From NCBI RefSeq assembly GCF_022458985.1, contig NC_061782.1, positions 12,417,672-12,481,671 on the forward strand: DNA of 64,000 nt, written 5' to 3'. This stretch comes from Mugil cephalus. Taxonomy: Eukaryota; Chordata; Actinopteri; Mugiliformes; Mugilidae. A program made the position numbers and the translations under genes. The first letter of the stretch is position 1. The number at the start of each line of letters is the position of its first letter. Shown here in pieces: positions 42,498-60,500 of this stretch. The notes under the pieces were generated by a model. That model saw only the letters and a list, made by a program, of their open reading frames with translations. It did no database searches and was not told the DNA's origin.

Positions 42498-43994
42498 GTA
42501 CAAGTAATCCCTGAGAGCCAAGCATGAGATTTGCATTTGTTGTCTTATGCTTAAAATGATTAGCAGACATTGACTCATCATTGACTTCCTTAAACATCAT
42601 CACAGTACATAAGTATAAGATGACCTAATTCCAGTGTCCATGCTGGCAGGTGTAGTAAATAACTTTGAGTGTCTTGTGACAATACAATGTTCTGCTGGGA
42701 AACTTTTGGACCTTGACATTTGTGTGGACGTCACGTAAGACATGTACAATCGACCGAGGCCAGACGAAAGAGGTGGTCCAGAAACATCGTGTTTCAGGTG
42801 AGATCCCCTCAAAGGCCAAGCTCAAAGTAAGATTTTTTTTCTGTTATATAGATGATTTGAGGTAATCAAGGACTCGGATGCACAATTTGCTGCTGTAATC
42901 TTCCTCTGTGACATCCAGCGCATGACACGAGTGTAGGAGCCTCTATATTGCTGAAGGTACCGAAAACACTGACATCATTTCAGATGAAATGAGGAAGGAG
43001 AAATTGACAAAGATGTAGACAGAAACAAACTGTGAGTCACATATATATATTTTTGTCCAACTCACATTACAAACTAAAATAAACTTAACTGAGTTGCACT
43101 CCGTCTGGTTTTAAAGTGGGGTCATTGCCTCTTCAGAGTCCGGTTTTTTATCTTTCTCTTTCTATTTTCTGAAAATCAGTATGTTTACTAAATAAATGCC
43201 CCAGATGTTAAATATGGACTTAAAGGAAAATGTGTATAAATATGTAGTGCGAACAATCAACATATACATGTCGAAATAGTCGACGTAGGTTTCAGATTTT
43301 TGTATTTTCTGCTATTGTTTCTTATCTTCTGTTTCTGTTTGCACAGTCATCACTGATCATTTGGTGAAAATTTCGGTCAGCTTAATCTCTCTGTGCTGCC
43401 TCATCATTTTAATTTCCTCTTGCGATAATCAATAAAGGTCTTATCTCTGAGGCAAATCATGCTGACAAACTGTGAGAACATTTGTTTTCTCAAACCTTTG
43501 TCAACCGCAGTGCTGTGGCTTTCACATGCATTCAGCTTCTCTTTTTAATCATAAGATACAGGGACGCTTCTCCTTTTCATCTTATTTACAAAAAGGAAAA
43601 TTTCTTTAAATAAAACCGGAAATCTATAATGGCAGGCAGCCTTGAGAAGCCCACGTTGGGGCCGTTGGTCATCCATACTTCCAGTTTTTTTTTTATTTCC
43701 ACACATTTTAGTCTTAACATATGCTGACAATAATGTTCAGGTAAACAGGTCTCACTTAGAATAAAACTTTATTATACTTTTCCTTATTTACGGTACAGAG
43801 TTAATGTCAGATGTCCATATGAAATGTGACCAAAGTAGCAGATGTACAAATAATCCCTGAGAGCCAAGCATGAGATTTGCATTTGTTGTTTTATACCTAA
43901 AATGATGAGCAGACACTGGCTCCTCATTGACTTTCTTAAACACCATCACAGCACATAAGTATAGGATGACCTAATCCCAGTGTCCCTGACAATT

Positions 43995-44632
43995 CGTGTC
44001 AGGATGTATGGGGGTGTTGAGGTGAGGACCCAAGCGCAGGACTGAATGATGAATAGGCAGGAAACGAAGTAACATCAGGTAACATCAACGGCGGTAGGGC
44101 TAAAAATACACAAGAGGACTCAGGGATGACAAGACACAGGTGAGACAGATTCAATTCAATTCAATTAAATTTTATTTATATAGCGCCAATAACAAATTGT
44201 CTCAAGACGCTTCACAGAAATCCAGCCTGCAACCTCCGGAGCAGGCCTGAGGGTGACGGTGGCAAGGAAAAACTCCCTTTTAACAGGAATCAACCTTGAG
44301 CAGAACCCAGCTCATATGGAGGGACCCATCTGCTGAAGGCCAGCTGGGTAGAAACAGAGAAGATAGAGAGAGAAGAAGAACAGGAGAAACAAGATAAACA
44401 AACTTCTGTCATAGATACAAACATCAAGTTGAAGGAAACACGTAGGATCTAGTAATATAACGCACAGCTGATGATCTTAGGTGACAGTTTGTCACTGTTG
44501 TGACAGTGACAGATCAGGGCAAAGACACCAGGAGAAATCAATTAACAATGATGGGACACACAAGGAAACACAGACAGGAAATCCGAAATTTAACAAAATA
44601 AAACAGGAAACTTTGGACCTGGGATTTGTGTG
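43995..44632. mobile_element. Nested teleost repeats, copy-1 specific
   Basis: The outer part (about 44005-44150 and 44480-44630: GACCCAAGCGCAGGACTGA ... CACACAAGGAAACACAGACA) resembles a common fish non-autonomous element. It is interrupted by the very widespread teleost repeat with TTCAATTCAATTCAATT, TTTATTTATATAGCGCC and GGAAAAACTCCCTTTTAAC (44148 to about 44400). The corresponding place in copy 2 (about 51510) has neither, so both arrived after the duplication or were lost from copy 2. Confidence 0.6.
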
Positions 44633-45235
44633 GATGTTACTTAGACATGTAGACTACCACCCACCTGGACCAGATGAGAGATGACTTTTATCATGTTTTC
44701 AGATGATGATGCCCAGAACATCATTTTGCTTGTATGTCACCTCTGTTTAGAATCAAGTATTGTTTGTGTGTGTCATATTCATCATGTTTGGGACTACACA
44801 GATGCTCTTGTGTGGTTTTGACACAACAGTGCCCTCAAATGAACAAGTTACATTCATCATTAGATAAGTGCAGATGTTCAGTCCACATGTTCTTGTTTTC
44901 ATATTTATTGTGCTTGCAGAGTGCAAATGTAGAAGACATTGTCTTTTGCAATTTGCGTCTTCTAATTAGTTGAATAAAATCTCACCTGTTAGGAGCACAT
45001 TTATATGCTTTAGAAACAGCTCAGTGATGGTCTTTATGAACAAGAGAAGCTACACTCACTTGCCAGTTCATTAGATACACTACTGTAAACCATTCTAACA
45101 GTCCCGCACTAAATCTCAGATTCATGGAGATTATGGTATTCAGACTTTGTTTAAAAATTGAATTAAAAAAAAAAAAGTTTTTTTTTTTATTTTTATTTTT
45201 TTCTTTTGATAGCCCCACCTAACTTGGCTAGGGAC

Positions 45236-57104: not shown

Positions 57105-57557
57105 GTGAGTTCATCAAATCCGTGGAAATATGTTGCTTTATGTAGACAAAATCGTCAAGATAGTCAAGCTGTCTTTCAGTTTACTGACTTCCCTGAACCT
57201 GAACCTAACATCGTTAATCCTGCAACAGCAAATGACCACTTTACTGCTATGCTACATTAATGACAGTGAATACCCTTTTAAAGTGTTCACAGGCACACAG
57301 AAGAACCAGTTATTTTAAAAACTTATGTAAAACACAGAGAAATATATGTTATACCATAAAGATAGAGTTGTAAAGTTTTTAACATTTATGTTACGTCTAA
57401 TGAAGAATAAAGCATGAATGCATGCTGTGCACACTGCTACAGATAGTGTAAATGAAGCCTTGATGAATATCTGAAATAAAGACTCTATAACTTTTTTTTA
57501 GCTGAGGTCCCTTGCAGACTACCTCTGGTGCCCAGTGGCTGCAGCAGACCTAACACT

Positions 57558-60500
57558 ATGGACCGGGCTGCATTCAGACAGAGCCAACTCTGCGGCTCCT
57601 GGGAGATGAAGGAGAGACTGGGAATGGGAGGCTTTGGGCACGTCTACCTGTACCAGCACCTTGTGAGTTCTGTTGGCTGTCTGTACATTCAGAAGAGCAT
57701 TAACTCCAGTCCCAGCCGTGCCTTTGCTTTGTTTTACTCCCTTGTCTGTGTTTGGTGCAGGAGCTGGGAACGAAAATTGCTGTGAAACTTTGCCGCCTGG
57801 AGCTGAACTCCACGAACAAGGACCGCTGGAGCAGAGAGATTCAGATCATGAAGAAGTGAGTCATAAATCAGCAGCAAACATTTTACCATGCTTCTTTTTC
57901 TTTTGCAGCATGTTTTGTGCTCTTTCTGCCACAGGCTGAATCATGTAAACGTTGTTCAGGCGAGAGAAGTTCCTGAAGAGTTAAGCTCCATTGCTATAAA
58001 TGACCTACCGCTGCTGGCCATGGAGTACTGTTCAAAAGGAGATCTACGCAAGGTAACAAAAGGGTGTTTCGTAAAGAACAATTTGTCATCTTCTAAGACA
58101 TTGCACTTCATTGATTCATGTCTTTACTTAGGTGCTGAATAAACCTGAAAATTGCTGTGGGCTAAAGGAGAGTGAGGTCCTCTCGCTCTTCAGTGACATC
58201 GGTAATGTTTTTACTTTATTAAATAGTCTCTACAATTCAATGCTTATGCATGGATATAGGTTTTTATTTTATGTTTTTGCCCACACACACAGGTTCTGGC
58301 ATCCAGTATCTCCATGAAAATAAGGTCATTCATCGGGACCTAAAGCCAGAAAACATAGTTTTACAAGAGATCGATGGGAAGGTGAATTAATTTTCCTTGG
58401 TGTATGCATGCAACTTTTGTGTAATCTGCACTAACATGTTAAATTTTTATGTTTTAGTATATCATACATTACATTATACCTTCTGTCCCACAGCTTGTCC
58501 ATAAAATCATAGATCTGGGTTATGCAAAAGACCTCGATCAGGGCAGTCTCTGCACGTCCTTTGTTGGAACTCTTCAGTATCTGGTAAATGTTTTTTAATG
58601 ACAAATTCATTAAAAGTTTTTTGTTTTTTTTGCCTTGTATCATAAATCTGATTTGTGTGCATGCCAGGCTCCAGAACTGTTTGAGAGTAAACCTTACACT
58701 GTAACTGTGGACTACTGGAGCTTTGGGACAGTGATCTTTGAATGCACTTGTGGCTTTCGTCCTTTCCTGCACCACATGCAGCCTGTACAGTGGTGAGTCA
58801 TACACACCTATCATCTGTAAACAACAGGCGCTTCCTTCTGACCCGGTACATCTACACTGATGGCCATATAAATAGACGTTAATTGAGTGTAACTCACAGC
58901 AAATATTAGACGGAAATTCTTGTATCAGTGACATCGATCCTAATGATATCATCTATTACATGTGGAGACAAATTAAGAAAAGTTTGGGTGAACAGAGACT
59001 GTTTTTGTGGATTCTTTTTTTGTTGTTTTCCTGCTCTTGAAGGACGAGCAAAGTCAAGAACAAAGGTCCCAAAGACATCATGGCGGTAGAGGACATGAAT
59101 GGAGAAGTCCGATTCTCCACACATCTTCCGTATCCCAATAATCTCAGCAGGTAGAGACAAAAAGACTGCTTACCAGTCCAATGTCCATCACTCTTATTAG
59201 TGTCTAACCTGTGTGTGTTTGTGCGTTTATAGGCCCCTGCTGGAACCAGTGGAGTCTCTGTTGCAGATGTTGTTACTCTGGGACCCTGCGATGCGCGGTG
59301 GAGGGCTGGATCCCAACACAAACAAGCCGCACTACTACACCATTCTGCAGAATATTCTCAGCATGAAGGTCGGGGTTAACACGCCCTTGCTTTGATTTAT
59401 TTCCACTTTCCACCGTTTATGGGTGGGATGTTTTTTATGGTTTTATGCCTGGCACTAGATTATAGGGAGTAAACAAACCAAACATCTTACTCTGCACTTC
59501 TAATTGTCTAGGTCATCCATATTTTGGACATGACGTCAGCCCAGCTGCACTCGCTGGTTTTGGGTGCTGAGGAGAGTCTACACTCCCTGCAGCTCCGTCT
59601 GGAAACGCACACTCAGACACACATCTCCCCGTTGAGTCAGGAGCTGCTGCTCGAGACGGGAAACTCTCTCGACCCACGCAGACTGCCTGCGCACTGTCTG
59701 CCAGATGGCTTGGTATGTGGCAAAACCCAAAATATCCAATGTAAAACAGATGCAGACACAAGTATGCGCAGGATCTACTGTTTTTTTGTTTTTTTTTATC
59801 TCCATAATTGAAAAATATTTGTTTTGAAATATTGGTTAGCCCTGAGTTACAGTGTTGTTTCTGGTAATAGGTCATATTTCAACTGTGCAGTTAATTGAAA
59901 CTTTCTGTGGATTTTCTCACGGAGCAACAATAAATAATGACAAATGTTTTATATATTTGCTGACTGCCTGTTTGCTCGCTCAAATATGACCGCAGCGTAG
60001 ACCTCCACTTAAGTTTTAGTTTTTATCAGTAAAGAAGCCACTGCTGACACTGTTGTTACTGATGTTTGTTTTGTGTTTTTAGCGTGGCTGGGACACCTCC
60101 ATAGTCTTCCTGTTCGATAAGAGCCTAACCAAGTATTCTGGACCGCTGACTGCCAGACCTCTGCCAGACAGTGTCAACTTTATAGGTGAGATACCGAATG
60201 TAACTGTATAGAGGTTATGCACATGACGTCACAGCAAGCGAAGTCTCTGAGTGGCGGAAAAAGTGACAGTTGAGCACAGAGATTAGCAGCATTAGTTTGA
60301 ATCATAGGCTTTAATATCGTCTAATTTGTAACATTAATTTTAAAAAGGGTCAGTAGCTGTTGTGCGATTCACTGAACCAACAGACTTGAAAAGCAGTCAG
60401 AGAGATATTTTTACAGATATCTCCGACCGCCAAAGAAAAGAGAAGTAAATGGGTCGCTGCGTTAAAAGAAACAACTAGAATCCAGACACAGAAACCTGGT

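Follow-up and report, generated by a model that had tools for sequence, protein, structure and literature searches.

An old, decayed partial tandem duplication at the start of chuk in Mugil cephalus, with an identical putative promoter tract in its two copies

Tandem segmental duplications with non-homologous or microhomology joins are treated in a survey of copy-number-variation breakpoints (PMC4056370), which takes microhomology as 2 bp or more and finds replication-based signatures at breakpoints hard to separate from end joining. Alternative promoters of a single gene are the subject of a general discussion in PMC2687787. Literature listings on tandem duplication, on alternative promoters and on fish chuk contained no account of a duplication of the chuk region. 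Here we describe such a case in a 64,000-nucleotide stretch of the Mugil cephalus genome (C13:12417672-12481671, without any N; hereafter the window), which was also compared with 634.8 Mb of genome on 24 contigs. The window carries a real, old and decayed partial tandem duplication of a known kind at the start of chuk, the IKK-alpha gene. As a duplication it is an ordinary event.

The explanation that best covers the locus as a whole, and in which we place high confidence, is a head-to-tail duplication running from intergenic DNA into a chuk intron, leaving a dead upstream kinase copy and an identical putative promoter. DNA that begins in the intergenic sequence to the left of chuk and ends inside a 91-bp intron of the gene was copied head to tail, with a join made presumably by end joining or replication template switching. 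The two copies have since drifted to an uneven degree, but the putative core promoter and untranslated exon 1 of the upstream copy still equal those of chuk, so RNA begun there could be spliced from the kept donor at 49664 to the chuk ATG exon about 7.8 kb downstream. The two units and their join are as follows.

42498-50311, + strand: unit 1, the upstream decayed copy (7814 bp)
50312-58226, + strand: unit 2, the copy joined to intact chuk (7915 bp)
50312-50313, + strand: join between the units, with GT common to 42498-42499, 50312-50313 and 58226-58227

Comparison of the two units gave 16 blocks, all on the plus strand, of which 14 were collinear and two were cross-matches between internal repeats. 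A second run found 15 matches spanning 4073 of the 7814 bases of unit 1 (cross-matches counted), the best scoring 1569 bits. Seven control pairs of neighbouring stretches within the window had, in contrast, only 0-47 bases covered on the plus strand, with 0-20 matches each and a best score of 72.5 bits, and 20 dinucleotide shuffles of unit 2 gave zero matches (the five highest all zero). The units are therefore two adjacent collinear copies in the same orientation. An earlier note made from the letters of this DNA had proposed the order and orientation, the coordinates and the unit sizes, and the long same-strand blocks of the self-comparison it had called for agree with it on each. Only about half of unit 1 still aligns to unit 2, with large indels and a non-CpG divergence of about 3-11% depending on the block.

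This wear bears on a possible assembly artefact in which both haplotypes of a single locus ended up side by side. The window holds no N, and the units differ by several percent, carry copy-specific indels that run to hundreds of bases and, in one copy only, have lost two coding exons, which is too much for alleles; a third diverged copy (below) is also present. We rejected an assembly artefact as very improbable, since the divergence is too high and the units are old and worn.

The join can be read letter by letter. The left flank at 42498 reads ...AGCAGAT[GT]ACAAGTAATCC and the intact chuk intron at 58226 reads ...TTAAATA[GT]CTCTAC, while the junction at 50312 reads ...TTAAATA[GT]ACAAGTAATCC, that is, chuk intron letters, GT and then the intergenic letters of 42498. 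The end of one copy is thus joined straight to the start of the next at a single breakpoint with only GT in common, as the earlier note held. The breakpoint falls some 25 bases inside the 91-bp chuk intron at 58202-58292, which had been called intron 4; that name is right by coding exons, the count we use unless stated, and becomes intron 5 once the putative untranslated exon 1 is included. The earlier note read the join as one of 2-bp microhomology. By our own reckoning about 16% of random joins (about 1 in 6) would share at least 2 bp, and the letters have had time to change, so the GT cannot be read as a mechanism. Apart from the GT, the sequence to the left of 42498 and that of the chuk intron near 58226 have no long homology, and non-allelic homologous recombination between repeats was therefore rejected as the cause, as far as the present letters show.

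The units hold dispersed pieces (55323-55697, the partners of a family seen at 36650-37037, and a short repeat at 42654-42765, 44529-44672 and 51503-51593 that recurs in other stretches), and independent transposon insertions might mimic a duplication in this way. The promoter block (49159-49967) occurs just twice in the 634.8 Mb, block 42899-43993 matches this locus only, apart from partial matches to local repeats, and the chuk exon 3 block has two genome matches plus two weak ones elsewhere, which we take for other IKK genes. These three blocks are thus not dispersed repeats, although repeats are embedded in the units; block 51680-52549 was judged only through its match at 35589-36464. The longest block, the chuk exon block and the promoter block are not dispersed. 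The pieces that are high-copy occupy corresponding positions in the two units, and the blocks agree in order and strand. Independent insertions were rejected on the single-locus blocks and deserve next to no credence, in keeping with the earlier note, which had preferred tandem duplication to them. When 35000-58300 was compared with 24 of 30 sampled genome stretches (240 kb), 17 matches fell in ten short intervals, none longer than 190 bases, and some of these were chuk exons.

Unit 2 forms the 5' portion of a chuk gene that looks intact.

57558-58792, + strand: chuk coding exons 1-7 in a single open frame; a GT donor follows every exon and an AG acceptor precedes exons 2-7; the start of coding exon 1 is taken from its ATG

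In the PDB these seven exons match IKK-alpha best (5ebz, presumably the human protein, E 9e-118), ahead of IKK-beta (4kik, E 2.7e-103). All 36 of 36 peptides picked from the window translations occur in order from 57558 to 63203; those past the seventh exon probably belong to chuk, as the human protein suggests. The last chuk exon probably lies just beyond the window. By its sequence, the copy of chuk in unit 2 looks functional.

The corresponding part of unit 1 has decayed.

49968-49979, + strand: site without chuk coding exons 1 and 2, with 12 bases in place of 57433-57875
50039-50156, + strand: remnant of chuk coding exon 3, with splice letters kept and three missense changes
50236-50277, + strand: remnant of chuk coding exon 4, its frame broken by a 28-bp deletion

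The lost exons are the one with the start codon and the one with the ATP-binding lysine. The exon 3 changes (A to V, P to L and R to C) are each a C to T at a CpG in unit 1, and the three altered residues are ones that unit 2 chuk shares with IKK-alpha 5ebz. With coding exons 1-2 missing, the exon 4 deletion and the missense CpG decay of exon 3, unit 1 cannot encode a kinase; its coding capacity is lost, as in an unprocessed pseudogene. A retrocopy was rejected, since introns, promoter and splice letters were all copied.

One part of unit 1 has not changed.

49477-49675, + strand: 199-bp tract of unit 1, identical to 56918-57116, with a TATA box at 49560 and a donor GTGAGTT at 49664
56918-57116, + strand: putative chuk core promoter, untranslated exon 1 and donor of unit 2, with a TATA box at 57001
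56758-56767, + strand: NF-kappaB-type site of unit 2, GGGAAATCCC; unit 1 reads GGTAAATCCC
56871: GC box, in unit 2 only

From the sequence, we infer that the tract is a core promoter plus an untranslated exon 1. The tract has no non-CpG changes (0/181), compared with 22/311 in its flanks and 227/2950 (about 8%) in the rest of the unit (tract against rest, Fisher 1.8e-6). All nine of its nine CpGs are kept, as are 11 of 16 in the flanks and 17 of 52 in the rest. In 20000 column shuffles a run of 199 never appeared, the longest being 156. Some points count against reading much into this identity. The shuffles used the overall rate of 407 events in 3912 columns, a figure that takes in poorly aligned blocks as well, and in simulations at 4.2%, the lowest regional rate, a substitution-free run of 199 arose in 2.6% of cases. 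It arose in 0.3% at 5.3% and in 0/4000 at 7.7%. Because simulations at low regional rates sometimes reach such a run, the identity of the promoter tract is unusual, yet not beyond doubt. A tiny upstream reading frame, ATG TTC TGA, lies in the putative untranslated exon of both copies (49613-49621 and 57054-57062).

The 199-bp identity could be due to gene conversion, or else to selection in favour of a second promoter for chuk. For a recent gene-conversion patch with a dead upstream promoter, which we hold to have about an even chance of being right, speaks the patchy divergence elsewhere, which is consistent with patchwise homogenisation (7/231 columns differ beside 29/117 and 78/581) and makes conversion a real alternative. 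That low-divergence patch is weak support, since its border is at an indel within a dispersed fragment and the low-divergence part of the fragment is also the best-kept part of its dispersed copies (85-87%); as proof of gene conversion, the patch near 48185 is weakened by the first of these points. Unit 1 also has neither the NF-kappaB-type site nor the GC box, and the CpGs at 49454 and 49474, just upstream of the tract, are lost in it. A scan with patterns for kappaB, TATA, CCAAT, GC box, ETS, NRF1, CRE and AP1 found a TATA box in each copy, a kappaB site and a GC box in unit 2 only, and a single CCAAT in unit 1. The kappaB pattern is not rare, with seven matches listed in the window, three of them overlapping at the unit 2 site. 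Against this reading, the tract coincides with what is probably a functional element, since it starts upstream of the TATA box and ends shortly after the donor of exon 1. The flanking CpGs are kept more often than those elsewhere (Fisher 0.019; of those lost, two are in unit 1 and three in unit 2), while the non-CpG divergence of the flanks is the same as that of the rest, which together fit an unmethylated region in both copies.

The other possibility is a second live chuk promoter, the upstream copy having dropped its coding exons and kept its core promoter, untranslated exon and donor. We put this forward tentatively, as a rather unlikely reading. RNA of chuk could then start about 7.4 kb further upstream, at a promoter without the NF-kappaB-type site and GC box, and IKK-alpha would gain an extra start region outside NF-kappaB feedback. 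If the tract is under selection, this would be a case of a partial tandem duplication that supplied a second promoter to the gene of an important immune-signalling kinase and whose copied coding part was lost. The promoter pair is useful for telling gene conversion from selection.

The duplication itself is more complex than the earlier note's account. The word tandem stands, but simple is doubtful, given a third same-strand copy with a divergence similar to that between the units.

35589-37139, + strand: third copy of the unit's middle (1.55 kb), between a vinculin-family exon and a trypsin-family gene
48177-48413, + strand: 3' part of a dispersed fragment in unit 1; the unit 2 equivalent is 55467-55697 and the whole fragment 55323-55697

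The third copy lies 5.4 kb left of unit 1 and matches 51680-52549, 44731-45230, 54356-54575 and 45900-46145; its part at 36650-37037 matches a dispersed family. It weighs, together with the uneven divergence of the blocks, against the simplest form of our explanation. One simple tandem event leaves the third copy unexplained, and one event followed by uniform drift does not fit a non-CpG divergence of 4.2% in 42899-43993 and 11.2% in 47402-48413. For the dispersed fragment, the units are identical at 224 of 231 columns of the 3' part, which suggests that it predates the duplication. The 5' part lends this no support: the units differ there at 29/117 columns and are no more alike than dispersed copies are. 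With the third copy, the history comprises either two or more duplications or a single complex event.

A single complex event by replication template switching might have made all three copies. This fits their common strand, the roughly star-like distances among them and the finding that 35589-36649 matched this locus alone among the best 40 of 1120 candidates scored, and a short GTGTC likeness, seen by eye, lies at the right end of the third copy. The alignments common to all three span 109 and 215 columns, too few to order events, and the third copy could predate or postdate the tandem units. We regard one complex event as doubtful.

Genome comparison of 55323-55697 returned 2573 candidates, 40 of which were scored, at 72-87% identity; we take the fragment to be Tc1-like, and a Pfam scan of the piece tested named no family. 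Between 47402-48413 and 54722-55697, differences run at 78/581 and 29/117 columns and drop to 7/231 near 48177, which may reflect gene conversion or else the composition of the dispersed fragment itself. The remaining features are these.

45231-45899, + strand: transposase remnant in unit 1 only (Pfam DDE_Tnp_1_7), presumably of piggyBac type
42396-42771, + strand: internal repeat 'a', in which the left breakpoint of the duplication falls; related stretches at 43714-43993, 50312-50428 and 51238-51602

Copies of repeat 'a' differ by 3-14.5% over 131 shared columns and are older than the duplication. Unit 2 alone has the 1.8-kb stretch 52550-54355, which contains a diverged internal repeat (52627-52970) and is bounded by ACGTCTA-type palindromes; unit 1 alone has 612 bp at 43994-44605, with apparent nested short repeats. 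A short dispersed repeat occurs at 13153-13244 (minus strand), 42672-42765, 44606-44674 and 51505-51595 and recurs in other sampled genome stretches. To the left of the units lie the vinculin-family exon and, on the minus strand, the trypsin-family gene with its trypsin domain, which we assume to be plau-like.

The locus resembles known systems in part. Like the tandem segmental duplications covered in PMC4056370, it is head-to-tail with no long homology at the join; it differs from them in that the chuk units are old and much decayed, part of them is present a third time, and the join is too old for a pathway to be read. As in partial duplications that give rise to unprocessed pseudogenes, promoter, introns and some exons were copied, the start-codon exon was lost and the frame was broken, but here the putative core promoter and exon 1 of the copy are identical to those of the parent, whereas the rest has drifted. 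If live, the upstream tract would also be like the alternative promoters discussed in PMC2687787, with two start regions feeding one coding gene. In contrast to those, the second promoter of chuk would derive from duplication of the first.

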